From: a virus
DNA: 38,161 bases
IMG/VR virus record: IMGVR_UViG_3300010885_043172
Location: 1 to 38,161 of that record
Direction: 5' to 3' (one strand)
Made by a program: the position numbers and the translations under genes. The notes beneath the pieces were generated by a model, which saw only the letters and a list, made by a program, of their open reading frames with translations, was not told the DNA's origin and made no database searches. Below, in pieces: positions 6,967 through 37,480 of the stretch (position 1 is its first letter; the number at the start of each line of letters is the position of its first letter).

Positions 6967-9519
6967 ATGAAATTTTATACTAACGCATACTCAACTAAGA
7001 ACAATATTCTTGTTCGTGGTATTGAAGACGGCAAGCCTTTTGCAGAAAAAGTGAATTATAAGCCGTATCTGTTCGTCAACAATAAAACTGATGAACAGAC
7101 AAAGTATAAAGACGTTCATGGAACTCCTGTTCGCCGCAAAGATTTTGAATCTATGTCAGAGGCGCGTGAATATATTAAGACATATTCTGATGTAGATAAC
7201 ATGACCATATATGGCATGACAAAGTTTACCTACACGTATCTCAATGATGCATATCGTACAATTGACTATGACCCATCACAGATTTCTGTAGTTGGTCTGG
7301 ATATTGAAACTGCCAAAAAAGCTGGTGGTGGGTTTGCATCTGCTGAAGTTGCTGATGCTCCTATTACTGCTATCACTATTTCTCGTAATGGATTTAAAGC
7401 AACATTTGGTTATAAAGATTATGTAGAGCACAAAGAAAACATTAAGTATTATCGCTGTGAAGATGAAGAGGCTATGCTTCGTGCATTCCTTACCATATGG
7501 AACAGCGTTGAATTTTGTCCTGATGTTATAACAGGCTGGAATATTGAATTTTACGATATTCCTTTCCTTGTTAATCGTATTGAGCGTGTGCTTGGTGAAG
7601 GTGCTTCAAAAAAGCTATCTCCATGGGGAATTATCAAATCATACGAACAAGAAATCATGGGTAGAGTTAACAAGAGCTATGAGATTATTGGTATCTCTAA
7701 TCTTGATTATATGCAGGTGTACAAGAAGTTTATTCTTTCGCCACGTGAATCATATGCTCTTGATTATATTTGTGAGCTTGAACTTGGTGTTAACAAGCTA
7801 GACTATTCTGAGTATGGTTCACTCCATGATCTATATGAACAGAATTTTCAGCTATACATGGAATACAACATCCATGACGTAGACCTAATCGACATGCTTG
7901 AAGCTAAGCTAAAGCTGATTGAAATGGTATTTGCCATTGCATATGACGCTAAGGTGAATTTCGAAGATGCATTGACCTCAGTGCTTCTATGGGACGTTAT
8001 CATTCACAACTATCTGTTGTCGTTCAACACGGTTGTGAAGCCACAAGAAACCAACACACCAGAACACGCCATCGTTGGTGGTTATGTGAAAGACCCTTAT
8101 GTTGGATTGACCAAATGGCCAGTATCGTTCGATCTTACATCACTGTATCCACACCTTATTATGCAGTATGGTATTGGTCCAGAAAACCTTGTCAAGCGTA
8201 TGGAATTCAACATTGACGAATTCCTTGCAATCTATGATGCTGGCTTCCTAGACACTACTGATGAGCATTTGAGAAATACATTGACATTCAAGTCATTGCA
8301 GTATGCTCATGCTAACAACCTATCGTTGACTGCCAATGGTGCCTTGTATAGCCGTGAGAAGCAAAGCTTCCTTGGTGAGCTAATGGATCGTATGTTCATT
8401 GAGCGTAACGAGTACAAAGGTTTGATGATGGATGCTAAGAAGGAATATTCACAAACAAAGGATGAGAAGCTTCTCAACACCATTTCGAAGTACAACAACC
8501 TTCAGCAAACACGTAAGGTCAATCTAAACTCTGCTTATGGTGCTTGTGCTAACAAGTACTTCCGCTGGTTTAGTACTGCTGTTGCTGAGTCCATTACTAC
8601 TTCTGGTCAGTTATCAATTCGTTGGATTGAGATGAAGCTTAACCGCTATCTAAACAAGCTACTTGGTACTGATGATGTTGATTATGTTGTAGCAATTGAT
8701 ACCGACTCTGTGTACATTCGTCTTGACAGTATGGCAGAAAAGTTCTTTCCAGATAAGGACACAAAGAAAACTGTTGCGTTACTTGACAAGATTTGTGAGG
8801 AGAAGCTACAGCCATTCATTACTAAGTCGTATGAAGAGCTTGCAGCCCTGATGAATGCACGTGAGAACAAAATGTTCATGAAGCGTGAAAATATTGCTGA
8901 TAAAGCTATTTGGATTGCTAAAAAGCGTTACATCATGAACGTGTACGACAGTGAAGGTGTGGCATACGATAAGCCCGATCTTAAGATGATGGGTATTGAA
9001 GCAATTCGTTCTTCAACCCCAGGTATGGTACGTGCTGCTATTAAGAAGTCTCTTGATCTTATCATGAATGCTGATGAGGCTGCATTACAACAATACGTCA
9101 TCGATTTTGAAAAAGAATTCTTTGCAAGTCCATTTGAAATGGTTGCCTTCCCTCGTGGAGTCAGTGATCTAGAAAAATATGCGGACAAAGATAAAATTTT
9201 TGGATTTAAGACGCCTGTTCACGTAAAAGGATCACTTTTTTTTAATCATCTGATAAAAAAAATGAAGTTGGATGATAAATATGAGAGCATTTCTAGTGGC
9301 GACAAGATCAAGTTCTGTTATCTAAAGGAACCTAATGTCTATCGAACGCCAGTAATATCTTGTGGTCCCGTGGTGCCGCAAGAGCTTGACTTGAAGCGCC
9401 ATATTGATTATCATGCCCAATTCGAGAAGGCATACCTATCTCCACTGTCGAACATCACCGATGCTATCGGCTGGCAGCTTGTTGATAAGCCTTCTCTTAT
9501 GGATTTTTTTGAGGATTAA
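6967..9519 (+). CDS. 43: DNA polymerase, family B (T4 gp43-like)
   Basis: An 850-aa replicative polymerase with 3'-5' exonuclease. Exo I is LDIET (Asp112, Glu114), Exo II is GWNIEFYDIPF and Exo III is YNIHDVDL. Polymerase motif A is DLTSLYP (from Asp389), motif B contains NLNSAYG (519-525), motif C is DTDS (578-581), and KKRYIM follows. All catalytic residues are present and the length is close to T4 gp43 (898 aa). It copies the phage genome with the helicase, primase and clamp (clamp genes are not in this window). The ATG follows AAGGGAGTTCC. It lies in one + strand block with the A1-like gene upstream and a small conserved gene 3 bases downstream. Confidence 0.97.
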   Translation: MKFYTNAYSTKNNILVRGIEDGKPFAEKVNYKPYLFVNNKTDEQTKYKDVHGTPVRRKDFESMSEAREYIKTYSDVDNMTIYGMTKFTYTYLNDAYRTIDYDPSQISVVGLDIETAKKAGGGFASAEVADAPITAITISRNGFKATFGYKDYVEHKENIKYYRCEDEEAMLRAFLTIWNSVEFCPDVITGWNIEFYDIPFLVNRIERVLGEGASKKLSPWGIIKSYEQEIMGRVNKSYEIIGISNLDYMQVYKKFILSPRESYALDYICELELGVNKLDYSEYGSLHDLYEQNFQLYMEYNIHDVDLIDMLEAKLKLIEMVFAIAYDAKVNFEDALTSVLLWDVIIHNYLLSFNTVVKPQETNTPEHAIVGGYVKDPYVGLTKWPVSFDLTSLYPHLIMQYGIGPENLVKRMEFNIDEFLAIYDAGFLDTTDEHLRNTLTFKSLQYAHANNLSLTANGALYSREKQSFLGELMDRMFIERNEYKGLMMDAKKEYSQTKDEKLLNTISKYNNLQQTRKVNLNSAYGACANKYFRWFSTAVAESITTSGQLSIRWIEMKLNRYLNKLLGTDDVDYVVAIDTDSVYIRLDSMAEKFFPDKDTKKTVALLDKICEEKLQPFITKSYEELAALMNARENKMFMKRENIADKAIWIAKKRYIMNVYDSEGVAYDKPDLKMMGIEAIRSSTPGMVRAAIKKSLDLIMNADEAALQQYVIDFEKEFFASPFEMVAFPRGVSDLEKYADKDKIFGFKTPVHVKGSLFFNHLIKKMKLDDKYESISSGDKIKFCYLKEPNVYRTPVISCGPVVPQELDLKRHIDYHAQFEKAYLSPLSNITDAIGWQLVDKPSLMDFFED

Positions 9520-9870: not shown

Positions 9871-10974
9871 ATGTCACTAATGGATAGACTCAAAAAAACA
9901 TCAACAATCAAAGACAGTGCAATTCTGTCAAAATCAAAGTTCTTTACTAAGAAGGACATGATTCCAACACCAATTCCAGCAATCAATATCGCACTATCTG
10001 GCAGTCTAGACGGCGGTCTGACACCAGGCCTTACCATGTGGGCTGGACCATCAAAGCACTTTAAAACAGCATTTTCTCTACTAATGGCTAAGTCCTATAT
10101 GGACAAGTATACAGATTCAGTATTGTTGTTCTATGACAGTGAATTTGGTACTCCACAATCATATTTTGAATCATTTGGTATTGATATGGAACGTGTATTG
10201 CATACACCAATCACTGATATTGAACTATTGAAGTTTGATTGCATGAAGCAGATTGAAGGAATTGAGCGTGATGAGCGTGTAATTATCATCATCGATTCTA
10301 TCGGCAATCTTGCTTCAAAGAAGGAAGTTGAAGATGCACTTGATGGTAAGTCAACAACCGACATGACACGTGCTAAACAGCTAAAGTCATTCTTCCGTAT
10401 GATTACACCACATTTAACAATCAAGGATATTCCTATGATTGCGGTGAACCATACCTATAAGACCCTTGAAATGTATGCTAAGGATGTCGTAGGTGGTGGT
10501 ACTGGCTCGTACTACTCAGCCGATAATATCTTTATCATTGGTCGCCAACAAGAGAAGGATAAGAATGAACTTGTTGGTTACAACTTTATTATCAATGTAG
10601 AGAAGAGCCGCTACGTGCGTGAAAAATCAAAAATCCCTGTTACCGTTCTTCATGAAGGTGGTATTTCAAAGTGGTCAGGACTACTTGACATTGCTGAAGA
10701 ATCAGGCCATATTGTCAAAACCAAGATTGGTAACAGCACTGCTTATGCCAAGGTTGATATGGCAACTGGCGTAATTGATGAAGAAAACAAGGTTAAGACA
10801 GATGCTACAAACACATCTGCTTTCTGGCTTCCTATTCTAAAGGACCAGAGTTTCCGTAACTTTGTTGAAAAGAAATACAGTGTTGCCCATGGTGATATCA
10901 TTAAAGAAGAAGATGATGTTGCTTCCGTAATTAATTCTATTGAAGATGAAGACGAAGCAATTACTTCAGAATAA
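9871..10974 (+). CDS. uvsX: UvsX, RecA-like recombinase
   Basis: A 367-aa strand-exchange protein. Walker A is GPSKHFKT (59-66), very like T4 UvsX, Walker B is RVIIIIDS (Asp142), and VNHTYKT and VVGGGTGSYYSADN correspond to the DNA-binding loop and following core. The C-terminus is acidic, as usual for UvsX/RecA. It promotes homologous strand invasion for recombination-dependent replication. The ATG follows AAAGGAAAAAAAT. It lies between polymerase and helicase genes, with RNA hairpins on both sides suggesting separate post-transcriptional control. Confidence 0.95.
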   Translation: MSLMDRLKKTSTIKDSAILSKSKFFTKKDMIPTPIPAINIALSGSLDGGLTPGLTMWAGPSKHFKTAFSLLMAKSYMDKYTDSVLLFYDSEFGTPQSYFESFGIDMERVLHTPITDIELLKFDCMKQIEGIERDERVIIIIDSIGNLASKKEVEDALDGKSTTDMTRAKQLKSFFRMITPHLTIKDIPMIAVNHTYKTLEMYAKDVVGGGTGSYYSADNIFIIGRQQEKDKNELVGYNFIINVEKSRYVREKSKIPVTVLHEGGISKWSGLLDIAEESGHIVKTKIGNSTAYAKVDMATGVIDEENKVKTDATNTSAFWLPILKDQSFRNFVEKKYSVAHGDIIKEEDDVASVINSIEDEDEAITSE

Positions 10975-11049: not shown

Positions 11050-12432
11050 ATGTCGATTGAACAGGTCATTTTCAATAACCTAATCAACAATGAAGACTAT
11101 GGCCGTAAGGTCATTCCCTTTATAAAAATAGAATATTTTCAGACTAAGAATGATCAGGTCATTTTTGAACTGATCAATAACTATGTCACATCATATAATG
11201 CTTTCCCGACTAAGGAAGTGTTGATGATTGACCTATCAAACTATATTGGTATTTCAGATGAACAGTTTACAGAATGTAAAGCTGCTATTGATGAAATTCC
11301 CAATCAGTCTGATGCTTTGTCCCAAGTCGATTGGCTTGTTGATCAGACAGAATCTTTCTGCCAAGATAAAGCTCTATATAATGCAATCACTAAGTCTATT
11401 GAAATTTTAGGCGATGCTTCAGGCAGTTTGTCAAAGGGTGTTATTCCTGACCTGTTGTCTTCTGCTCTTGCAGTTTCGTTTGATACATCAATTGGGCATG
11501 ACTTTTTATCAGACACTGATTCTCGTTTTGAATTTTATCATCGTAAAGAAGAACGCATTCCTTTTGATATTGAATATCTAAACAAGATTACCAAGGGCGG
11601 ATTGCCACGTAAAACGCTCAATGTTATTTTGGCTGGTACAGGTGTTGGTAAGTCATTGGCTATGTGTCATATGGCTTCTGCTAATCTGCTAGAAGGAAAA
11701 AATGTTCTTTATATCACTATGGAAATGGCTGAAGAAAAGATTGCAGAACGTATCGATGCTAACCTATTGAACATTCCACTTGATCAATTATATGATGTTC
11801 CAAAGGATTTATATGACAAAAAAATTAATCGCCTACGTGAAAAAACAGTTGGTAAGCTTATTATTAAGGAATATCCAACTGCATGTGCTGGTTCTGCGAA
11901 TTTCCGTCATCTTCTAAATGAACTAAAGATTAAGAGAAACTTCATTCCAGATATCATTTATATTGATTATCTCAATATCTGTAGTTCTTCGCGTATGAAG
12001 CAAGGCGCAGGAGTCAATTCATATACTTATATCAAGGCAATTGCTGAAGAGCTTCGTGGGTTGGCAGTAGAATTTAACGTACCTATTGTGACTGCTACTC
12101 AGACAACACGTGGTGGTTATGACAACAGCGATGTTGGATTGACTGATACTTCTGAATCATTTGGTCTACCAGCAACGGCAGACCTTATGTTTGCGTTGAT
12201 TGCAACAGATGAACTTAAACAGTTAAATCAGATCATGGTGAAGCAGTTGAAGAATCGTTATGCTGATCCTGAAATGTATAAGCGTTTTGTGATTGGTGTT
12301 GACAAATCACGTATGAAGCTGTATGATGCCGAACAATCTGCACAAGATGATCTTGTTAATGATACGGTTGCTCCTGATACAGCATTTGGACAAAAAGCAA
12401 GTAAGAAGCCATCATTTGATGATTTTAAGTAA
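11050..12432 (+). CDS. 41: replicative DNA helicase (T4 gp41-like, DnaB family)
   Basis: A 460-aa protein. Residues 1-150 are the helical N-terminal domain. The RecA-like motor holds Walker A GTGVGKS (196-202), LYITMEMAEEKIAERI, Walker B IIYIDYL (Asp306), TATQTTRGGYD and the arginine-finger region near KNRYADPEMYKRFVIG. It would be a hexameric 5'-3' helicase that unwinds ahead of the polymerase and carries the primase. The ATG follows AAGGAAAACTA. The C-terminus PSFDDFK is short and acidic/hydrophobic, as in partner-binding tails of phage replication proteins. Confidence 0.95.
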   Translation: MSIEQVIFNNLINNEDYGRKVIPFIKIEYFQTKNDQVIFELINNYVTSYNAFPTKEVLMIDLSNYIGISDEQFTECKAAIDEIPNQSDALSQVDWLVDQTESFCQDKALYNAITKSIEILGDASGSLSKGVIPDLLSSALAVSFDTSIGHDFLSDTDSRFEFYHRKEERIPFDIEYLNKITKGGLPRKTLNVILAGTGVGKSLAMCHMASANLLEGKNVLYITMEMAEEKIAERIDANLLNIPLDQLYDVPKDLYDKKINRLREKTVGKLIIKEYPTACAGSANFRHLLNELKIKRNFIPDIIYIDYLNICSSSRMKQGAGVNSYTYIKAIAEELRGLAVEFNVPIVTATQTTRGGYDNSDVGLTDTSESFGLPATADLMFALIATDELKQLNQIMVKQLKNRYADPEMYKRFVIGVDKSRMKLYDAEQSAQDDLVNDTVAPDTAFGQKASKKPSFDDFK

Positions 12433-17624: not shown

Positions 17625-17931
17625 AGATTATAAAAGAGGATGGTTTATTGGAAATTTTGAGCCATCTGTATTAAAAACAAAAGAATTTGAAGTGTCTTAT
17701 ATGCGACACGCTAAAGGAGAAATATGGGATGCTCATTATCATAAAGAAAGCATTGAATATAATGTTTTAATTGAAGGAAAAATGATCATTCAAGGAATAA
17801 CATTAGTGAGTGGTGATGTATTTGTTTTTGATAAAGGTGAGATTGCAGACCCAGTATTTCTTGAAGATTGTAAATTAATTGTTGTGAAAGTGCCCAGTAT
17901 TATAGGAGATAAGTATGAAGTTTTTCCGTGA
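17605..17931 (+). CDS. cupin-fold protein
   Basis: A 108-aa single-domain cupin: DAHYHKESIEYNVLIEGKMI gives the His-x-His and the following Glu of metal-binding motif 1, and LVSGDVFVFDKGEIADPVF corresponds to motif 2, lacking its usual His. Cupins of this size serve as isomerases, epimerases or sugar-binding proteins. The ATG lies 20 bases inside the upstream gene and its own end overlaps the RuBisCO-like gene by 17 bases, so it is tightly coupled to both. It may act on the same substrate as the RuBisCO-like enzyme (inference from position). Confidence 0.72.
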   Translation: MKKTRIEDYKRGWFIGNFEPSVLKTKEFEVSYMRHAKGEIWDAHYHKESIEYNVLIEGKMIIQGITLVSGDVFVFDKGEIADPVFLEDCKLIVVKVPSIIGDKYEVFP

Positions 17932-19105
17932 ACGTGAAGAAATTAATGAACAAGATTATGTTATAGCAACATATTTGCTTGGCAGCACAAAATCAATACG
18001 CGATGCAGCTTGGAATTTAGCAATTGGTCAATCTGTTGGCAATCCAAATGTTCGCAATGAATGGGAAACTGAATTGATGTTTGAGCATCATTCATGTATT
18101 ATTTTAGCGAATGAAAAACAGTTAGAAAAAATCGGAATAATGCCCGTTCAGATTGCATTTCCGATTGTTAATACAGATTGGGAAACTGATGGAATAAGTC
18201 ATCTTTTATGCCAGCTAATGGGTGGCCATGTTGATATAGATGTTGTTACCAGTTGTAGATTAATTAATTTGGAAATTCCAGTTTCCGTCAAGAAAAAATT
18301 CCTTGGGCCAAAATTTGGCATCACAGGCTTTAGAGATTTTACAGGACAATACGGCAAGCCATTATTTGGAAGTATTGTTAAGCCAAAAATTGGTATTACC
18401 CCTGAAGTGCTGCTAGAGATGGTTAAACAGATGGTAGACGGTGGGGTTGATTTCATCAAAGAAGATGAAATTATGGTTAATCCAATTATTGCCCCGCTTG
18501 AGCGTAGAGTAGATATTATTTCAAATTATCTAGCTAAACAGTCTAAAAAAGTTGTATTTTGCCACACAATTAACTGCGATCCTCATATTCTTCATGATAG
18601 AGTGTCCAAAGTACATGAACTTGGTGGCAATGGAGTACACATTAATGTATGGTCAGGATATGGAGCTTATAATAGTATTAGAAAGCTTGATTTGCCAATT
18701 TATCTTCATTTTCAAAGCAGCGGCGCTAAAGTCATCACAGACCAGTCGCATAAATACAGCATTTCGTGGTCTGTTATGTGTCAGTTAGCAACTCTTATGG
18801 GCGTTGACACTATTCAAACAGGTATGATTGGTGGTTATAGCAATGATGATCCCGTAGAAGTTAGAGAGTGTATTGATATTTTGCAGAATGGTAATACACT
18901 TCCAGCTTTAAGCTGTGGATTTCATCCGGGTTTAGTTGACTATGTAACGGAAACTGTTGGTAACGATTATTTGGCAAATGCAGGTGGAGCCGTACATGGC
19001 CATCCTAACGGTACAGTATCCGGCGCTAAGGCTATGCGACAAGCAATTGAAAAAAATTATGAAAAAGAATACCTATTAGCGATTTCTCAATGGGGAAAAA
19101 AATAA
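17915..19105 (+). CDS. RuBisCO-like protein (form IV type)
   Basis: A 396-aa homologue of the RuBisCO large subunit. The barrel has GSIVKPKIGIT (Lys156/Lys158, matching Lys175/177), DFIKEDE with Lys182, Asp184 and Glu185 in place of the carbamylated Lys201 and metal ligands Asp203/Glu204, ALSCGFHPG (Ser333 for Ser379) and AGGAVHGHPNG for the phosphate-binding GGG-GHP segment. Residues needed for carboxylation are changed: loop-6 Lys334 is Tyr308, His327 is Gln301, and His294/Arg295 fall in LHFQSSG. The N-terminal domain is short and the usual Asn123 is not evident. Thus an enolase- or isomerase-type reaction on a sugar phosphate is likelier than CO2 fixation. AGGAG precedes the ATG. It lies among sugar-activation genes, unusual for a phage. 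Confidence 0.85.
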   Translation: MKFFREREEINEQDYVIATYLLGSTKSIRDAAWNLAIGQSVGNPNVRNEWETELMFEHHSCIILANEKQLEKIGIMPVQIAFPIVNTDWETDGISHLLCQLMGGHVDIDVVTSCRLINLEIPVSVKKKFLGPKFGITGFRDFTGQYGKPLFGSIVKPKIGITPEVLLEMVKQMVDGGVDFIKEDEIMVNPIIAPLERRVDIISNYLAKQSKKVVFCHTINCDPHILHDRVSKVHELGGNGVHINVWSGYGAYNSIRKLDLPIYLHFQSSGAKVITDQSHKYSISWSVMCQLATLMGVDTIQTGMIGGYSNDDPVEVRECIDILQNGNTLPALSCGFHPGLVDYVTETVGNDYLANAGGAVHGHPNGTVSGAKAMRQAIEKNYEKEYLLAISQWGKK

Positions 19106-24441: not shown

Positions 24442-24861
24442 ATGACAAAGTGGGTAAAAGGAAAGTTTGAGAGCGAGATTAAAAGCTTTACAGCTATTGC
24501 TAATAAAATTGCATCCGACATAAGTCAGCAAGAAATTAAAAAGAAACTTGTTGAGCAGATGCTTGAAGACTTTAAGAAAAAATATAATGCTAAAAAAGAG
24601 CAAGTCTTAAAGCCGACCACATGGAGAATGCTTGAAGGCAGTGAATCATGGAATTGCGATACTATGATTAAAATTGAAAAACAACTCAAATCTTCTGACA
24701 TCAAACTTTTATACGAGATTATATACGAAATGTTGTCTGAAAAAAATATAAATTGCCCGATTATCATGATGCAAAACAATGTTGGTATGCTTGTATGTGG
24801 TGAGAATACTCTAATGGCATGTAAATTACTAAATATAGAACCAAAAGTAATAATGATATGA
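24442..24861 (+). CDS. phage protein with ParB-like C-terminal segment
   Basis: A 139-aa protein. The first half is a charged helix; the end, NCPIIMMQNNVGMLVCGENT and LMACKLLNIEPKVIMI, resembles the closing strand-helix of ParB/sulfiredoxin-like domains (pattern G-x-N/H-R-L-x-A-x-x-L-G), though the central Arg is replaced. I recall comparable proteins near virion genes of T4-like phages. The ATG follows AAGAGGACTATC and tandem late promoters, so it is expressed late. It overlaps the next gene by 4 bases. Function unknown. Confidence 0.6.
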   Translation: MTKWVKGKFESEIKSFTAIANKIASDISQQEIKKKLVEQMLEDFKKKYNAKKEQVLKPTTWRMLEGSESWNCDTMIKIEKQLKSSDIKLLYEIIYEMLSEKNINCPIIMMQNNVGMLVCGENTLMACKLLNIEPKVIMI

Positions 24862-25112
24862 AAACACTCAAACAATTCCTAGACGAAACTCCTGCTAATA
24901 TATCTGCCGGAACGGGTGTAAGAGGATTTGGAGACGTTTCTGGAACTCCTACAGGTGATATTACTAACTATGCTGCATTTAACGCCTCAGACAATTCTAG
25001 AGCCGATGCTGTAAATGGTATCGTAGATCAACACAACGCAATGCATACAGACTCATTAGAAGCCAGTGATGCAGATACTAAAGACAACCTCTTAAAACCA
25101 AAGAAGAAATAA
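24858..25112 (+). CDS. small late protein with internal-head-protein-like leader
   Basis: An 84-aa protein. It opens MKTLKQFLDETP, resembling the capsid-targeting leader of T4 internal proteins (MKTYQEFIAE), and FLDE fits the (L/I)-x-E site cut by T4 prohead protease gp21. The rest is polar, Gly/Asp/Ala-rich and probably disordered, ending KPKKK. It may be packaged in the head, and possibly injected. It lies just before a large virion protein gene, 4 bases overlapping its upstream neighbour. The leader similarity is my reading; protease and cleavage are not shown here. Confidence 0.55.
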   Translation: MKTLKQFLDETPANISAGTGVRGFGDVSGTPTGDITNYAAFNASDNSRADAVNGIVDQHNAMHTDSLEASDADTKDNLLKPKKK

Positions 25113-25113
25113 T

Positions 25114-26640
25114 ATGGCCCAGTGGCGCATCGATCAACAGAAAAAGGTAGAACAGAACAGTAAGACCCTATATGAATTGGGAATGATTGCTAATGTTAAT
25201 GGCGATCCTGTTAGTAATACCAATCCATTTCCTGTTACATTAGGTTCAAATAATATTACCATTACAGGTAATGTGAATGTTGGTACAACAGTTGAAGTGT
25301 CGAGTACACCTCAAAATCCAGTACATACCCATATTACAGAAGTTGGCAACAGCGGTCTTTTAACAGTTTCGTATATGCCTATTGGCGGTAACGTAGTAGT
25401 TACTGGTTCTGTTAATGTTGGTAACATTCCAGCATCTCAGAATGTCGTAGTTACATCAGGTAATTTTGCATTTGATCCTGTAGCATCAGATGCGTTTGGT
25501 AGACACAGAGTATCATTACCGCTAACACTTTTTGATTCTTCTCATAGATATAAAGATAATGGATTATGGAGTACATCTAATACTTCTGGTACTACCTATG
25601 CATTTAGTCCTAATGAAGGCTTAGTAACACTAAATCTTCCCACAACAGCTAATGCAGAAATCATTCGAGAGACTAATAAAGTATTTGCGTATCAACCCGG
25701 CAAATCACTCCTTGTTCTTAATACATTTGTCCCAGAACCACCAAAGACAAATCTTCGTCAGCGTATAGGTTATTTTGGTGCACAAAATGGAATCTATTAT
25801 GAGCTAGAAGGAAATACGGCATACTTTGTAGAAAGATCATACGTATCTGGTTCTTTAGTAGAAACACGAGTAGCACAAGCAGATTGGAGTGAAAACACTC
25901 TATCAAGTTTTGATAAGAGCAAAGCTCAGATTTTCTGGATGGATATTGAATGGCTTGGTCTCGGTACTGTTCGTTGCGGTTTTGTTATTAATGGCAAGTT
26001 TATTCACTGTCATTCGTTCCACCATGCTAATTTAATTACATCCACTTATATTACCACGGCATCGCTGCCTATTCGTTATGAAATTAAAAATACAGGGACA
26101 ACTGCAAGCATTTCTACTATGAAGCAAGTTTGCTCGTCTGTAATCTCTGAAGGCGGATATGAACTGAGAGGCGTACAACAAGCTATAGGGATTCCAATCA
26201 CTGCGGCACGTACTTTGGCTACAGCAGGAACATTTTACCCAATTGTATCATTAAGATTAAAATCAACGGCATTGGATGCTATAGTGATCCTGACCGCCAT
26301 ATCTACTATTGCAGATACATCAAGCAATTTTAACTGGCAAGTGAAAGCAAATACGACTACAACGGGCGGAACATGGGTAAGCGCAGGTGCCGATAGTGCT
26401 GTTGAATATAATATAACAGGTACTAGTACATCAGGGGGTAGAGTGCTTGCCTCTGGTTTCTTTACAGCAACCCAAAGCACCAGCGTATCTGTAGATATTC
26501 TCAAAGAAGCACTATTCAAGTTTCAACTAGAAAGAAACAGCTTAACTGGAACTCCGTTTGAAATTTCTTTAGTGTTGGCATCTAAAACTAATGGTGAGGG
26601 TGTTTACGCATCGATGGATTGGGAAGAAGTTTCAAGATAA
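25114..26640 (+). CDS. large beta-rich virion protein
   Basis: A 508-aa protein. Residues about 30-125 are repeat-like strands (ITITGNVNVG, VVVTGSVNVG and NVVVTSGNF share a V-x-V-T/N-G pattern typical of fibre-like beta segments). After DAFGRHRVSLP comes a large globular beta domain with LRQRIGYFG and YFVERSY, then a C-terminal beta-sandwich-like region ending GVYASMDWEE. It looks like a surface-exposed virion or tail/baseplate-associated protein, as in T4-like phages of aquatic bacteria (recollection). No enzyme motif. It starts one base after the stop of the small leader-bearing gene and is transcribed from the late promoters at 24407-24426. Confidence 0.7.
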   Translation: MAQWRIDQQKKVEQNSKTLYELGMIANVNGDPVSNTNPFPVTLGSNNITITGNVNVGTTVEVSSTPQNPVHTHITEVGNSGLLTVSYMPIGGNVVVTGSVNVGNIPASQNVVVTSGNFAFDPVASDAFGRHRVSLPLTLFDSSHRYKDNGLWSTSNTSGTTYAFSPNEGLVTLNLPTTANAEIIRETNKVFAYQPGKSLLVLNTFVPEPPKTNLRQRIGYFGAQNGIYYELEGNTAYFVERSYVSGSLVETRVAQADWSENTLSSFDKSKAQIFWMDIEWLGLGTVRCGFVINGKFIHCHSFHHANLITSTYITTASLPIRYEIKNTGTTASISTMKQVCSSVISEGGYELRGVQQAIGIPITAARTLATAGTFYPIVSLRLKSTALDAIVILTAISTIADTSSNFNWQVKANTTTTGGTWVSAGADSAVEYNITGTSTSGGRVLASGFFTATQSTSVSVDILKEALFKFQLERNSLTGTPFEISLVLASKTNGEGVYASMDWEEVSR

Positions 26641-26649
26641 GGAAAAAAA

Positions 26650-27360
26650 ATGAAAACACTAAAAGATTTTATTTCAGAATGTGTTCTTAAAGAACGTGAT
26701 GAGGGTTCAGACCATCCGGCAGTTGTTAAGTTTGCGTCAAAAGCACATGATGAATGGCGCAGAGGATTTGAAGCATCAAATGGTAAAGGCACAGAGCGAA
26801 TCAAAAATAATAGCGATGGCACTTCAGGTAATATAAATGTGTCGTTTGATAAGTTGCACCCTGATTGGCAAAGAGAAAATCTTGCAGCAGGTAGAGCAGC
26901 AAAAGAAGCAGTGGAAAAACATGGTTCCAATACAGAAGCTGCTGCTGAACATATTCATAATGAATGGATGAAGCGCAATCCTAAAGCAGATTACAATGCA
27001 GCACAACATGTTCCTTATTCTGAACTACCAGAAGAAGAAAAAGAAAAAGATCGTGTTCATGTTAGAACAATGAGAAATCTTTTAAATGTTCATGAAGAAT
27101 ATATTTTTGAACGTGGTGAAGACGATAAAGGATATTACCGTGCAACAGAAGATGGTGCTGGCCTTACAAAGAAAGGCGCAGAACACTTTGGTATAAAGAC
27201 TGCTGTAACAAGAAAGAATGTCGATCCTGACTCTGAGGCAGGTAAACGCCGTAAGTCATTTTGTGCAAGAATGTCTGGTATGCCCGGCCCAATGAAAGAT
27301 GAAAAAGGAAGACCTACACGTAAGGCAATGTCTTTAAAGAGATGGCGTTGTAAAGTCTAA
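26650..27360 (+). CDS. late protein: internal-head-type leader, RyR-like domain, C-terminal Cys/Arg motif
   Basis: A 236-aa protein. The leader MKTLKDFISEC resembles T4 internal-protein capsid-targeting leaders, with FISE fitting the (L/I)-x-E prohead-protease site. Residues about 21-90 (AHDEWRRGFEASNGKGTERI, then KLHPDWQREN) resemble the RyR domain found in some phage and bacterial proteins. The end, RRKSFCARMSGMPGPMKDE with later K-R-W-R-C, is a short conserved Cys/Arg motif I have seen in phage virion proteins. Together these suggest a protein packed into the head and possibly delivered to the host. The ATG follows AAGGAAAAAAA. A late promoter and RNA element follow its stop. Confidence 0.6.
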   Translation: MKTLKDFISECVLKERDEGSDHPAVVKFASKAHDEWRRGFEASNGKGTERIKNNSDGTSGNINVSFDKLHPDWQRENLAAGRAAKEAVEKHGSNTEAAAEHIHNEWMKRNPKADYNAAQHVPYSELPEEEKEKDRVHVRTMRNLLNVHEEYIFERGEDDKGYYRATEDGAGLTKKGAEHFGIKTAVTRKNVDPDSEAGKRRKSFCARMSGMPGPMKDEKGRPTRKAMSLKRWRCKV

Positions 27361-27587: not shown

Positions 27588-30272
27588 ATGAGCACACCTG
27601 AAAACATTAGAAATAAAGCTTATAGTGCAGCCCGTCAACTCGTGAGAAATCGTCTCGCTGAGAGTGCTGGTGCTGCTTATGAAAAGCTTGGTCCAACTGA
27701 AAAGATGAATATTGACAGGGCCGTTGAAAAAAAGCAAGCTCAAATTAAAAAAATTGCTCTTAAATTAATTCCACAAATTGCCAACAATGATAAAAAGCGT
27801 TTAGATTCATTCAATACTGGAAGTCCATTAGCAAACTATGGTTCCCCAGAAATGGGTGATGTTAACGAAGAGCTTAATAAAAAATTTGCAAAGCAAGTTT
27901 CTTCAAACAAAAAAGAAAAGCCAACTGAAAAAGGCGGCAAATGTGCTTACATTCAAATGCACAATACTTTTGGTGAAGAAGTTTCATTAAACAGCGCCGT
28001 ATATAAAGCAATGATTAAAAAATCTGATAAATCAGGGATTGATGTCAATATTCTTGGTGAAATCTATAATCGTGGTATGAATATATGGAATAAAAATACA
28101 AATGTTTCACAACAGCAATATGCGTTTGCTCGTGTAAATTCTTTTATCAACAAAGGTAAGACATACTTCAATGAAGATAGTGATCTTGTTACTGAAACTA
28201 AAAAGAAAATGAAGGTTGAAATTCAAGAAGAAACTGAAACCTTTAAGAAGGGCGATGTAGTATATCTAAAGACTAATAAGTCTGCAAATTCTCCGCACAC
28301 AGGTATAGTTAAAACAGTTACTCCTACACATGTTCACATTAAAGCTGTGGGTGGTACAGGATTGTATAGGGCACCTCATTCTTCGGTCACTAAAGATAGA
28401 AAACTATCTTATCATCATGTTACCTATGGTAATAAAAACGAAGAAACAGAGATAGAAGAAGCTCAAGCAAAACCATATGTTAAGCCTTTACACAATGAAA
28501 GTGGAAAGCAGGTTGGGTGGAAATCATCAAATGGTCATCATGTAAAGTACTGGCAGATGTTTGCCAAAAAGTCTGCATTAAAACATGCTAAACTTGAAGA
28601 AAGTATTGAAGAAGATGATTTTTTAGAACTAAACGATGAGGGAATTAATTTCTTCATTGAAAATGGTCTTGAATTTGATCTTGCTGAAGCCACAATCAGA
28701 AACACTAAAAAATTAATTCAAAGACTTCATGATGTCGAACAAGGTCAAACTTATGGTGGCCAACCATATTCAAGCCATCCAAAGTCAGTAATGCGTCTAG
28801 GTATTAAAGTTTTTGGTGGAAAACGTTTTGATCAAAATGCAAGAAAAGCAGCACTACTTCATGATACAATTGAAGACACGCCGACAACACCAGAAACTTT
28901 AATTAAAAAAGGTTTTCATCCTGATGTTGTGAAAGCAGTTCAGCTATTGAGCAAAGACAAAACAAAATCATATGAAGGCAATATCGAAAATATTGCTAGT
29001 GGTAATACTCCTGCTCATAAAATCGCACAGATGGTTAAGTATAGTGATAACATGTCAAATTACATGTCTATGCCAAAGCCAGAATGGGATAATGAAAAAG
29101 TTAAAAAACAAAAAACAAAATATATGGACTCAATGAAAAGATTGGGTCAAGTACTTGGCGTAAATCATCATGAAACACTTGAGCCAAAGTGGAAGCTTAA
29201 AGAAAACACAACTGATGATAACAAGCCATGTCAATCAAAAGATATTAATGAAGATTTGCGTAAATGGTTTGATCAAAAATGGGTTCGTATGGACACCAAG
29301 GGTAAGATCAAAGGTGATTGTGCTAGAGAAGAAGGTGAAGGCAAACCAAAGTGTCTTCCAATGGCTCAAGCACAAGCCATGGACCCAAAGGATAGAGCCA
29401 AAGCCGCTCGACGTAAGCGCAGAGAAGACCCAGTTGCTGATAGAGAAGGCAAAGGTGAAAAACCTATTAACGTCAGAACAGAAGCGGTAAGCCGAGCGCA
29501 ACAAGCTGCAATTGCTATTTCTATGAAGAAAGCTGGTAGGAAGCCAAAGAACGAAGAGGTTCAACCCCTAGAAGAAAAATCCAATCCTACTAATCCAGCC
29601 CTGTGGTCAAAAGCAAAGTCTCTTGCTCGTCAGAAGTTTGATGTATATCCTTCTGCATATGCTAATGGATGGGCGGCTAAATGGTATAAATCAAAGGGTG
29701 GTGGATGGAATTCTGCTAACGAAGAATTTGTAGATACATCAAAAGGTTTAAATGAATCTTTCAACATGGCATTTGATTATCAGGGAAAGCCAGTAATAGC
29801 ACCTACAGCACATGAATTAATGATGAAAACACAAGGCGGGTTTGCTCATCACAATGACGTACAGGATGTTATGAACGTCAAATCAATCAAAGAAGAGATT
29901 GAGAAGATATTTCAATCGACTATTCTTGAAGAAGATGATGATAAACTAGCAATTTCTATGAATAGCTTAATTAATATGGTCAATGAAGCATTCACCACTA
30001 TTGATAGAATTAAGTCAGCTAATATTGAACGTGATGCATGGTCACAGGCTCAAATCCTTAAGTTAGAACGCTACATTGAATCGGTTGCCGCATACATTAA
30101 CAACATAGATGAAACCGTAAGAAGCGGCGAAACACATGGTGTTATCGTTCCTGCACACACAATCGTCAGTCAAAAAACAGGTCAGTCAATCACTATACCT
30201 GCTAAGACAAAGAATGTAAAGAAGAATGATGTAGTTCTTCATCCAAATGACAATCCATTCGATGGTAAATGA
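27588..30272 (+). CDS. 894-aa composite virion protein with MESH1/SpoT-type HD hydrolase domain
   Basis: Domains in order: 1-75 helical (KAYSAARQLVRNRLAES); 115-200 a segment ending QQYAFARVNSFINKGKTYF seen in phage proteins (DUF5824-like as I recall); 218-255 a KOW-like strand set (KKGDVVYLKTNKSANSPHTG); about 374-525 an HD domain of the (p)ppGpp hydrolase type with HP (His397), LLHDTIEDT (His425, Asp426, Glu429, Asp430) and KYSDNMSNY (Asp487, Asn491), all catalytic positions being at MESH1/SpoT spacing; 556-626 a DLRKWFDQKWVRMDTKG motif with basic tail; 667-707 an ALWSKAKSLARQKFDVYPSA motif; 780-894 helical/beta tail. No synthetase domain. GAGGAAAAT precedes the ATG. It lies among late virion genes, suggesting it is packaged and perhaps injected to lower host alarmone (inference). 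Confidence 0.8.
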   Translation: MSTPENIRNKAYSAARQLVRNRLAESAGAAYEKLGPTEKMNIDRAVEKKQAQIKKIALKLIPQIANNDKKRLDSFNTGSPLANYGSPEMGDVNEELNKKFAKQVSSNKKEKPTEKGGKCAYIQMHNTFGEEVSLNSAVYKAMIKKSDKSGIDVNILGEIYNRGMNIWNKNTNVSQQQYAFARVNSFINKGKTYFNEDSDLVTETKKKMKVEIQEETETFKKGDVVYLKTNKSANSPHTGIVKTVTPTHVHIKAVGGTGLYRAPHSSVTKDRKLSYHHVTYGNKNEETEIEEAQAKPYVKPLHNESGKQVGWKSSNGHHVKYWQMFAKKSALKHAKLEESIEEDDFLELNDEGINFFIENGLEFDLAEATIRNTKKLIQRLHDVEQGQTYGGQPYSSHPKSVMRLGIKVFGGKRFDQNARKAALLHDTIEDTPTTPETLIKKGFHPDVVKAVQLLSKDKTKSYEGNIENIASGNTPAHKIAQMVKYSDNMSNYMSMPKPEWDNEKVKKQKTKYMDSMKRLGQVLGVNHHETLEPKWKLKENTTDDNKPCQSKDINEDLRKWFDQKWVRMDTKGKIKGDCAREEGEGKPKCLPMAQAQAMDPKDRAKAARRKRREDPVADREGKGEKPINVRTEAVSRAQQAAIAISMKKAGRKPKNEEVQPLEEKSNPTNPALWSKAKSLARQKFDVYPSAYANGWAAKWYKSKGGGWNSANEEFVDTSKGLNESFNMAFDYQGKPVIAPTAHELMMKTQGGFAHHNDVQDVMNVKSIKEEIEKIFQSTILEEDDDKLAISMNSLINMVNEAFTTIDRIKSANIERDAWSQAQILKLERYIESVAAYINNIDETVRSGETHGVIVPAHTIVSQKTGQSITIPAKTKNVKKNDVVLHPNDNPFDGK

Positions 30273-30316: not shown

Positions 30317-30757
30317 ATGGATAAACTAATCGAACAAATGAAAAGATTACTAGCCGATGTTTATGCATATGGTCTAAAGGCACAGAACTATCATTGGAAT
30401 GTCGAAGGCCCAGACTTTATGCAATATCACGGTTTATTTGGTGGTATCTATGAAAAGGCTGCTGAAGATGTGGACACAGTTGCAGAACATATTCGTGCTC
30501 TTAATTCATATACTCCTGCTTCATTTGGTCGTTTTCAAGAACTAACATCAATTCAGGATGAGACAACTGTTCCTATTGCAATTGAAATGGTAAACCGTCT
30601 TTATCAGGACAATGCAAAGGTTCTTGCTACTGCTAAGATTGCATGTGCAACTGCTGATGAACTAAAGCAGCATGGTGTTTTAAACTTTCTTGAAGGTTTA
30701 ATTGACGATTACGAAAAACAATCATGGATGCTACGTTCAACTGTAAAGAGAGTCTAA
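30317..30757 (+). CDS. Dps-like ferritin-family protein
   Basis: A 146-aa four-helix protein with the Dps signature: AQNYHWNVEGPDFMQYHGLF then EDVDTVAEHIRAL. Ferroxidase ligands correspond to His26, His38, Asp53 and Glu57, at the same spacing as E. coli Dps His51, His63, Asp78 and Glu82; the Dps Asp67 position is Gly42. Dps proteins form 12-mers that store iron and protect DNA from peroxide. This one is translated from a late region, so it may be in or around the virion. It lacks the long basic N-terminal tail of E. coli Dps. The ATG follows TAGGGAATAAA; the next gene starts one base after its stop. Confidence 0.88.
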   Translation: MDKLIEQMKRLLADVYAYGLKAQNYHWNVEGPDFMQYHGLFGGIYEKAAEDVDTVAEHIRALNSYTPASFGRFQELTSIQDETTVPIAIEMVNRLYQDNAKVLATAKIACATADELKQHGVLNFLEGLIDDYEKQSWMLRSTVKRV

Positions 30758-31407: not shown

Positions 31408-33273
31408 ATGATTAAGAATAACGATAATTTTGATAGTCTATCAAAAAGTCTAATTGCCGATGTTCGTGCCGTTATGGAAGGCAAGAAAAAGGCATGTAAG
31501 TGCAACAACAATTGCTCTTGCGAAAAAGAAGAAAAGGGCGAAAAGAAAGCCGACGATGAAAATGCTGAAATGAAGACTGAAGCTTATGATGAGGTTGCTG
31601 TAAACAAGGCCATCGCTTCTTCAAACCGTTCTGGTAAAAAAATCAGTAGTGGAGCAGCAAAAAGAATTCATTCTCTCTTAAAAGGACATTCTGGTAGACA
31701 ACCAAAGTGGACAAAAGATGAAGCTGATGCAATTACTGCTAAGATAAAGGCAGATAACAAGGGTGTCAAGGAAGAAGTCGAGATTGAAGAAGCCAAGATG
31801 ACTTATAAAAAGATGCTTGGCCAACACTGCGTGTATCAAGGCGATAAAATGCTTCGTTCATTTCCAACAGAACTGGAAGCCATGAACCATATTAAAAAGA
31901 ATCAAAGCGAAGAGCCTACAAAGAAAACTTATTCTTATAATGAGGAAGCTGAAAATCTTGATGAAATCAGTCATAAATTACGTAGTAGCTGGTTATCTAA
32001 AACTTTTAACAATCATTTCGATCATCGCATGGATGATAGTGATGCTGCTTCTGGTTGGAGAATAGACCCGCCTATAAAAGGACCAATGTCATCTTCTCGT
32101 CTAAAAATTTATAACAAAGCTCTTGATAAAGCTCAAAAACAGAACATGAAAGATTATGAAGATCGTGAACGTGCGAAGCGTGAAAAATATACACCTAAAG
32201 TCCACGATCTACGTGATATGGATCATGATGAAGTATATGATCACACTCAGACTAGCAATAAAATTAAGGATGGAGATGTTATGCGTGTCAAAAATGGCAC
32301 TGCTGCTATGATTGGTGCATGGCCAACAATGATCCATGGTAAAAGCGATGTTCTTCACAGTTTTAAACCTGGCACTTCTATTAAGACAATTGATGGCGGA
32401 TCATATCATAAAACATCTAAACTAGCTGATCTAACTCATGGTATTAAGGAAGAAGCTGTTAACGAAGCTAAGGCTGAAAGCCCAATCAAAGGCACTCGTC
32501 TAATTTCAAAGCATCAAGGCAAAGATGGCCACCATGCAGAAGTTCGTTTTAATCCAGATTACAACGAATATCAAGTTCATCACTATAACAATGGTAAGCA
32601 TATGGGCGAAGGTCCAGTTTCTTATCATGGCGAAGGTAAGGAAGGCAGAGAAGATGCTACTAATACTGCTGAGTATGAAGTAAACAACTATCGTCCTAAG
32701 AATGGTTCTCTTCGTAAGGAAGAAGTTGAAGTGGTCGATAATGAATTCAATAGAGCCAATTATAAGCATTTAATCGGTAAAAGATACTCAGATGAAAAAG
32801 TACCATCATATGCAAGAGTAAAGAAGGTTGAAGAAAAGCCTTTAGTTGGCAATCAACATAAGCTCGACAAAAATAAGAATGGTAAGCTTGACGCACAAGA
32901 TTTCAAGATGCTTCGTAAGGGCAAATCAATTGAAGAAAAGCTAGACCCTTCTATGGGAAGTGCTAAGTATATTGATGACTTTGTTAATTCAAAAGACCCA
33001 CGTTTTGAAGGCAAGTCAAAGAAAGAACGCATTAAAATGGCACTTGGTGCTTATTATGCTGCTAAAAATGAAGCTGTAGAAACTAAAGAAGTTGATCAGA
33101 TTGATGAAAAATATGGTGCTAAAACAAATTATAAAAAACATCATATTAGCGTAAATGGCAAGTATGTTGCTACAACAACATGGGCAAGAAGTGCCAAGGA
33201 AGCTGAACAAAGATTTATTCAACAGCATCCAGAACATAAGAATGAAAGAATCACAGTCGTTAAAGAACAATAA
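31408..33273 (+). CDS. 621-aa modular, highly charged virion protein with EF-hand-like loop
   Basis: The protein is a chain of short modules separated by acidic linkers (EEVEIEEAK, EEAVNEAKAE, EEVEVVDNE). Near residues 30-45 there is a Cys-rich patch (KACKCNNNCSCEKEE). Later come VNKAIASSNRSGKKISSGAA and KAESPIKGTRLISKHQGKDG, a region with many His (HHAEVRFNPDYNEYQVHHYN), an EF-hand-like loop LDKNKNGKLDAQDF (about residues 486-499) and DPSMGSAKYIDDFVNSKDPR. The end looks like a small strand domain (TNYKKHHISVNGKYVATTTW). These modules are common in uncharacterised phage head proteins. ATG 31408 has TTGGAGAAG upstream. Function unknown; Ca2+ binding is possible. Confidence 0.65.
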   Translation: MIKNNDNFDSLSKSLIADVRAVMEGKKKACKCNNNCSCEKEEKGEKKADDENAEMKTEAYDEVAVNKAIASSNRSGKKISSGAAKRIHSLLKGHSGRQPKWTKDEADAITAKIKADNKGVKEEVEIEEAKMTYKKMLGQHCVYQGDKMLRSFPTELEAMNHIKKNQSEEPTKKTYSYNEEAENLDEISHKLRSSWLSKTFNNHFDHRMDDSDAASGWRIDPPIKGPMSSSRLKIYNKALDKAQKQNMKDYEDRERAKREKYTPKVHDLRDMDHDEVYDHTQTSNKIKDGDVMRVKNGTAAMIGAWPTMIHGKSDVLHSFKPGTSIKTIDGGSYHKTSKLADLTHGIKEEAVNEAKAESPIKGTRLISKHQGKDGHHAEVRFNPDYNEYQVHHYNNGKHMGEGPVSYHGEGKEGREDATNTAEYEVNNYRPKNGSLRKEEVEVVDNEFNRANYKHLIGKRYSDEKVPSYARVKKVEEKPLVGNQHKLDKNKNGKLDAQDFKMLRKGKSIEEKLDPSMGSAKYIDDFVNSKDPRFEGKSKKERIKMALGAYYAAKNEAVETKEVDQIDEKYGAKTNYKKHHISVNGKYVATTTWARSAKEAEQRFIQQHPEHKNERITVVKEQ

Positions 33274-36451: not shown

Positions 36452-37480
36452 GTGGATTGGTTAGATAGAAAATATATTGGTTTTATATCTCATAGACTAA
36501 GAAATTACAAGCAGAAATCAGAGAATCTTTATAACTTCTCTTGTCCTATCTGCGGAGATTCCAAAACAGATAAAAGAAAAACACGTGCTTACTTCTATGA
36601 AAAGAAGGGTAAGGCATGGATGTGTTGTCATAACTGCGGTGTAGGAATGACAATTGATAATTTTGTAAAATATCTTGATCAAGGATTGTACAACGAATAT
36701 ATTAAAGAGCGTATGCTGGCCAATGGTCAAGTACGTAAAAAGACTGATGTTGAACTTTTTGCTGAAAAAATGAAAAAGCCAAAGTTCATGAAAACAAGTC
36801 CTTTGATGAAGCTAAAGAAATTGTCATTATTAAATCCTGCTGGTCCAACACGTATATATGTTGATGGACGTAAAATTCCTGCATCTATGCATCATAAACT
36901 GTTTTATTGTAAAAACTTTAAAGCATGGGTGAATAGTTTTTTGCCAAATAAGTTTGAGAATGAAGAACATGATGAAGCTCGTTTAATTATTCCATTCATT
37001 GATCAGGATGGAGAATTCTTTGGTCTTCAAGGTCGTTCACTAGTTAAGGACAGTAAACTACGATATATCACAATCATCCTTGATGAAGATAAACCAAAAA
37101 TATATGGACTTGATACTGTAAAATTGGACCAGACTATATATGTGGTAGAAGGTCCGATTGATTCAATGTTCATTCCAAACGCTATTGCATCTGCTGGTAG
37201 TGATCTTACTTCAAACTTAAGACAACTTAAAACTGATAAGAGTAACTTTGTGATTGTATTTGATAATGAACCACGAAACAAAGAAATTGTGAAGAAAATT
37301 CAAAAGGCAATTGACCAAGGATATAGAGTTTGTTTATGGCCTGAAACAATTCTTCAGAAAGATATCAATGATATGATTCTTGCTGGATTAACATCGAAAA
37401 AAATTATTGACATTATTGATGAGAATACATATAGTGATCTGTCCGCAAAAATTAAATTTGCAACATGGAAAAAAATATAA
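36452..37480 (+). CDS. 61: DNA primase (T4 gp61-like)
   Basis: A 342-aa primase. The N-terminal zinc module has C31-P-I-C34 and C59-H-N-C62, reading initiation sites on DNA. The TOPRIM core has VVEGPIDSMF (Glu233) and FVIVFDNEP (Asp271, Asn272, Glu273 as a D-x-E form of the DxD). Length matches T4 gp61 (342 aa). It makes RNA primers with the gp41-type helicase. The start is GTG at 36452, with GGGAA upstream; an ATG two bases earlier is out of frame and stops quickly. It lies far from the other replication genes, behind its own promoter. Confidence 0.92.
   Translation: MDWLDRKYIGFISHRLRNYKQKSENLYNFSCPICGDSKTDKRKTRAYFYEKKGKAWMCCHNCGVGMTIDNFVKYLDQGLYNEYIKERMLANGQVRKKTDVELFAEKMKKPKFMKTSPLMKLKKLSLLNPAGPTRIYVDGRKIPASMHHKLFYCKNFKAWVNSFLPNKFENEEHDEARLIIPFIDQDGEFFGLQGRSLVKDSKLRYITIILDEDKPKIYGLDTVKLDQTIYVVEGPIDSMFIPNAIASAGSDLTSNLRQLKTDKSNFVIVFDNEPRNKEIVKKIQKAIDQGYRVCLWPETILQKDINDMILAGLTSKKIIDIIDENTYSDLSAKIKFATWKKI

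Follow-up and report, generated by a model that had tools for sequence, protein, structure and literature searches.

Closest to the proteins described here are the internal proteins IPI, IPII and IPIII of the T-even phages. They share a leader of 10 residues with key positions 4, 7, 8 and 10 and a gp21-type L/I-x-E end, and the mature parts behind the leader are unrelated to each other (PMC9026906; PMC12373910). Mutagenesis in T4 assigned residues 4 and 7 to targeting and residues 8 and 10 to processing, and an aspartate at position 10 stops processing (PMC9026906). Non-structural proteins were also detected in purified virions of the cyanophages S-CREM2, S-SZBM1 and S-SCSM1 (PMC10665884, PMC9146016, PMC9602691). 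In the portions of these reports accessible to us, the authors do not decide between true packaging and carry-over, and neither a leader nor a cutting site is described there. Polyvalent proteins of phages and conjugative elements combine several effector-type domains, RelA/SpoT-type domains among them, in one delivered protein whose parts are later separated (PMC5512222). Finally, the ejection proteins of giant phages, e.g. SPN3US, are packaged in the head, trimmed by a prohead protease and ejected (PMC7411985, PMC10052503). In the open-access literature searched the terms "capsid targeting sequence" and "cyanophage" occur together only in a T4 review; other journals may hold more.

Leaders in the window

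We analyzed the viral fragment IMGVR_UViG_3300010885_043172, a stretch of 38,161 bases which we call the window. It carries T4-type replication genes, namely a polymerase (6967-9519), a UvsX-like protein (9871-10974), a gp41-type helicase (11050-12432) and a gp61-type primase (36452-37480, plus strand). Its polymerase shares about 46% identity with cyanophage polymerases and 54% with that of contig G071, the nearest among the large uncultured contigs examined. The two genes in question, which we name 24858 and 26650 after their first positions, sit in a cluster at 24.4-36.4 kb directly upstream of the primase. Their counterparts in Melnitz, S-SCSM1, S-SZBM1 and S-CREM2 lie in the helicase-primase interval or beside the primase. 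Elsewhere in the window a RuBisCO large-chain-like protein (17915-19105, Pfam E 6e-38) is found within a phage sugar and nucleotidyltransferase cluster.

An open reading frame is indeed present at 24858..25112 (plus strand) and codes for 84 residues starting with MKTLKQFLDE/TPANIS, where the slash marks the predicted cut after Glu10. The second gene (26650..27360, plus strand) codes for 236 residues with the start MKTLKDFISE/CVLKER, an RyR-like domain and a DUF6321 domain; here as well a cut after Glu10 is predicted. The leaders themselves span 24858..24887 and 26650..26679 on the plus strand. A preliminary description of this DNA had likened both N-termini to the leader of the T4 internal proteins. 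This likeness is real and above chance. Leu4, Phe7, Leu/Ile8 and Glu10 are present in both proteins, that is, the hydrophobic residue 4, the aromatic residue 7, the I/L at 8 and the Glu at 10 of a T4-type internal protein. The pattern M[KR]x[FLYIM]xx[FY][ILVMF]xE matches just these two among the 50 non-overlapping open reading frames of the window, and the scan for further leaders, which the same description had proposed, thus returned no others there. When the N-termini of all window open reading frames were shuffled (n = 20,000), one match arose in 0.3% of the shuffles and two matches in none. In pairwise comparison of the N-termini (1,225 pairs), no other two share 6 or more of the 9 residues that follow the methionine. 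Their leader DNA differs at synonymous positions; therefore, the pair is no fresh duplication. In T4, taken as a positive control, the leader pattern in its DNA form recovers ipII and ipIII.

Leaders in other T4-like phages

Judged from sequence comparison, unrelated proteins of T4-like phages bear the leader as a mobile tag. In related loci it stands ahead of DUF6321, RyR-like (MINFKTFLNE, locus L001) and DUF6267 proteins, on NMNAT/NadR-like enzymes with a fused zeta-type kinase domain, and on a small protein beside a phrog_1645 structural protein. The residue after the N-terminal [FY][ILVM]x is Glu in 29 of 33 cases in T4-like loci, a set gathered partly with leader-bearing queries. DUF6321 without leader is also found in loci without T4-like markers. 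Across 11 T4-like genomes the DNA pattern has 30 matches, a few of them not gene starts, and the reversed pattern has 1; in 6 genomes without detected S77 protease, the family of the gp21-type enzyme, there is no match. The pattern also has no match in ACG-2014f, and the cytidylyltransferase of HTVC008M carries a degenerate leader (MKTLKELLRKK). A scan for leaders in the surroundings of S77 genes (80 loci) gave nothing but two weak matches, so in that clade the protease has no leader genes beside it.

T4 gene 61.1 (NC_000866, 18966-19130, minus strand; L467) encodes 54 residues with the start MKTFKEFIKE/DMVAGDSGG and a KKKK-rich tail. Annotated only as hypothetical, it adjoins gene 61, the same place as the cluster of the window, and it is among the matches of the DNA pattern in T4. 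Leader-like starts (MQGFKTFLSE, MKKFSEIIE and MKNFKNHIAE) are also observed among the helicase-primase genes of the Methylophilales phage Melnitz (L291, 12203-26000), a cultured phage in which the leader prediction could be tested; its S77 protease gene is located at 125945-126592.

Virion proteomes of relatives

Six annotated proteins of S-CREM2 carry, within 12 residues, a leader that obeys the T4 rule; five of these were detected in virions (PMC10665884), that is, the SAM hydrolase gp6 (MKDFDSFLEE), gp13, the kinase gp14 (VKRFDAFLTE), gp136 and the cytidylyltransferase gp154 (MKNFSSFLTE). The leader-bearing gp175 was undetected. Counting non-structural proteins, 5/6 with leader compare with 23/189 others (p = 2.4e-4, which is somewhat optimistic since the rule comes from T4 but was tested after the N-termini had been viewed). 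A control motif with a non-Glu residue at the place of the Glu matches no S-CREM2 virion protein. The virion protein gp137 has DUF6321 as its C-terminal end. Also in virions is the Cas9-like nuclease gp12 (L294, 7704-10313), in which LRFASFMAE/A ends at residue 25 and the leader is set back from the annotated start.

The sole enzyme detected in S-SZBM1 virions, an NMNAT-like cytidylyltransferase (MRFRQFIIE), has a leader (PMC9146016); the proteins 191 and 192 have clear leaders and were undetected. S-SZBM1 was rejected as an independent replicate of the link between leader and virion, as it points in the same direction but is not significant alone (p = 0.15); stratified over both phages, the link has p = 7.6e-5. 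The virion NMNAT of S-SCSM1 starts with MKSFLQFLKE (PMC9602691). Several of these cyanophage virion enzymes thus bear the leader, and they partly share the neighborhood of the window genes. Between 24858 and 26650 lies a phrog_1645 virion structural protein (25114..26640, plus strand) whose S-SZBM1 homologue 190 was detected in virions and is located beside two leader genes. The S-SZBM1 genes 192-191-190 (leader plus DUF6321, small leader gene, phrog_1645) resemble 24858-25114-26650 of the window in content.

Comparative sequence analysis together with these proteomes lends good support to the idea that a T4 internal-protein-type leader with a gp21-type L/I-x-E end marks head-packaged proteins, as the preliminary description had supposed. 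In its sequence features the leader falls in with the capsid targeting sequences of the T-even phages, and it would work in the same way. That the likeness is a matter of chance, or of a generic amphipathic start, might be argued from the shortness of the motif and from the low model confidence of the leader helix. We regard this as highly improbable in view of the shuffle test, the prevalence of Glu at P1 in T4-like loci, the behavior of the DNA pattern against its reversal and in S77-less genomes, and the enrichment of leaders among the S-CREM2 virion proteins.

Predicted cargo proteins of the cluster

Behind its leader, 24858 is rich in Gly, Ser and Thr and ends in a KPKKK tail, a layout which resembles T4 gp61.1. 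Its body reappears as an internal module of a 512-residue protein of contig L081, after TNE/SVNTAGSGGVRGFG. This is the sole match; homology of 24858 to isolated phages was sought and not found.

Residues 24-145 of 26650 (26719..27084, plus strand) form an RyR-like helical domain, which is missing from the close relative L005. The preliminary description had proposed such a domain, and it holds in a weak form: the top structural match is a human RyR3 repeat (26% identity over 87 residues) with Z 5.5, low for a helical domain, and the Pfam RyR family (PF02026) gives 14.2 bits, below the cut-off of 27.4. The structure model makes an RyR fold likely. A second predicted protease site, IFE/RGED after residue 154 (27103..27111, plus strand), stands between the two domains of 26650 and had been overlooked. 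The DUF6321 domain (PF19846) at residues 169-232 (27154..27345, plus strand) reaches 52 bits against a cut-off of 28.5. The model shows a helix at residues 4-17, with low confidence for the leader helix, the helical RyR-like region and a confident DUF6321; residues 148-155, which adjoin the internal site, are of low confidence. Neither Pfam nor PHROG links the mature parts of 24858 and 26650 to a T4 internal protein family (E <= 0.1). Nothing was found on DUF6321 and DUF6267 in the open-access literature searched.

The neighboring gene 27588 (27588..30272, plus strand), likewise overlooked before, looks from its sequence like a polyprotein of cargo modules. Its 894 residues comprise DUF5824, HD, DLRKWF and YPSAY modules, and there is no T4-type leader at the N-terminus. 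The HD domain (residues 376-480; 28713..29027, plus strand) follows the motif LAE/ATIRNT at residue 367 and is kin to small alarmone hydrolases (PDB 7smg, MESH1), with E 3e-7 to hydrolases of (p)ppApp/(p)ppGpp. It is possibly a packaged enzyme directed at host (p)ppGpp-type signals. Further sites are predicted at INE/DLRKWF after residue 555 (29244..29252, plus strand) and, ahead of the YPSAY module, at LEE/KSNPTNP after residue 663 (29568..29576, plus strand). The cluster also encodes a multidomain protein of 621 residues (31408..33273, plus strand), and none of 26650, 27588 and 31408 has a peptidase domain by Pfam and PHROG searches. A Dps/ferritin-like protein without leader is encoded within the cluster as well (30317..30757, plus strand), and a Dps-type ferritin gene adjoins leader genes in two different contigs, the window and L081 (8485-8919).

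The leader proteins might instead be prohead core or scaffold proteins or DNA-condensing virion proteins, which stay or leave during assembly and are idle in the host. DUF6321 is basic and also occurs leaderless in the head gene block of the T7-like phages S-CBP4 and HTVC031P; therefore, this domain may serve the virion and not act against the host. Moreover, 24858 is small, unstructured and core-peptide-like, and the Dps gene lies within the cluster. However, leader cargo elsewhere includes clear enzymes detected in virions (SAM hydrolase, kinase, cytidylyltransferase), an alarmone-hydrolase-like domain is found in the cluster of the window itself, and the cargo turns over quickly between close relatives. 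We consider the core or scaffold role doubtful and prefer injected cargo.

Protease motif at module boundaries

In T4-like contexts the DUF6321 domain is immediately preceded by [ILVMF]xE at a constant position (115 distinct DUF6321 sequences compared). The site follows either a bare leader (MKSFKEFLNE/SSAWQ) or hundreds of unrelated residues, as in the internal junctions YIFE/RGEDDKGYY of the window, DIME/RGEDDKGYY (L008) and IINE/VAAWQ (L020). Leaderless homologues lack the motif (MAKTAAWQ, SLAVGRGEK). Where a locus has T4-like markers the motif is present in 34/35 cases, and where it has none in 15/80 (p = 2.6e-16); for the internal cases alone the figures are 23/24 and 8/28 (p = 4e-7). Some T4-like contigs escape the marker calls when the locus is short, and lack of a marker therefore does not prove that the phage is of another type. 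In S-SZBM1 192 the site ahead of DUF6321 (MRAE/G) has no L/I at P3.

The YPSAY and DLRKWF loci were gathered afresh by module sequence alone. The motif precedes YPSAY at 82/82 and DLRKWF at 34/34 distinct boundaries. P1 and P3 are fixed there, and the residues vary from P4 onward; as the boundary sequences are related, being gathered by similarity, these counts stand for conservation and not for independent events. Both modules also occur straight after N-terminal leaders (MKSFIQYLKE/DLRKWF in L164, MITFKQLLE/KNVPTNP in L356). P1' at the predicted sites is often Lys, Asp or Arg, a point against cleavage there. In the close relative L005/L304, the version of 27588 is without residues 207-554 and has the new junction DLAE/DLRKWF, the version of 26650 is without the RyR-like part and has the junction VLIE/RGED, and the gene 24858 is missing. 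The LxE is kept in these deletions; thus, modules come and go at these sites.

It could be that the leader is truly of T4 type but the internal [LI]xE is left uncut, a conserved module start within long proteins that act as whole multidomain internal virion proteins. The motif borders conserved module sequence, and the linkers at the predicted sites are Glu-rich, which makes an LxE easily found. In 31408 the LxE sites are indeed no commoner than in shuffles, which gives a polyprotein design of that protein no support. Against this speak the fixed P1 and P3 with variation from P4 onward, the lack of the motif in members of the same DUF6321 subfamily that have no leader (MAKTAAWQ vs LNE/SSAWQ), and the use of the same junction behind true leaders (L164, L356) and its restoration after deletions. 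We judge uncut proteins to be unlikely. Processing of polyproteins is likely on these sequence grounds.

The gp21-type protease itself, which the preliminary description had also suggested to look for, has no gene in the window, a fragment of 38 kb. Of 19 contigs of 100 kb or more that carry site-bounded modules (and were found by module sequence), 15 encode an S77 prohead protease, among them G071, the closest large relative by polymerase. Of 4 large contigs with siteless DUF6321 none has it (p = 0.008 against 15/19). In short fragments presence or absence of the gene is uninformative.

Discussion

We think it quite probable that the leader proteins are head-packaged and probably injected cargo, much of it made as polyproteins which a gp21-type (S77) protease would cut. 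The process could proceed in the following steps. Binding of leader residues 4 and 7 to the prohead core would pull the protein into the forming head. Then, the S77 protease would cut after Glu10, with residues 8 and 10 recognized. The mature part would be left in the head with the DNA and ejected at infection. 26650 (IFE/RGED) and 27588 (INE/DLRKWF, LEE/KSNPTNP) are most likely polyproteins from which separate cargo proteins would be released inside the prohead, because the protease motif also separates cargo modules in this lineage. For the phage of the window we infer cleavage, packaging and injection, as well as any effector role. At least some of the cargo is likely to be injected and to act in the host, and it is plausible that 24858 and 26650 are injected effectors.

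In contrast to IPI-III, to which the mature parts are unrelated, the leader is found here in aquatic T4-like phages, and modules also occur in series with a site before each, as read from sequence alone. With its DUF5824, HD and two further phage modules, 27588 is multidomain in the sense of the polyvalent proteins. Those carry an embedded peptidase, whereas none was found here and a separate prohead protease would cut in the head. For the ejection proteins of the SPN3US type, which we compared by description only, the accessible parts of the reports describe no T4-type tag of 10 residues on interchangeable modules.

Enzymes recur in cyanophage virion proteomes, and leader plus protease site offers a mechanism and a predictor that can be read from sequence. 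Candidate injected proteins could thus be listed in thousands of uncultured T4-like genomes, and the RyR-like, alarmone hydrolase, DUF6321 and DUF6267 domains are targets for counter-defense screens. The rule at the module boundaries suggests a way in which phages build and exchange multi-part cargo. We lean towards the view that a large group of uncultured T4-like phages carries injected cargo as polyproteins of interchangeable, site-fronted modules, which would be drawn into the prohead by the leader and freed by the capsid-maturation protease. The site would then be both cutting and shuffling point, and recombination there would swap the cargo.
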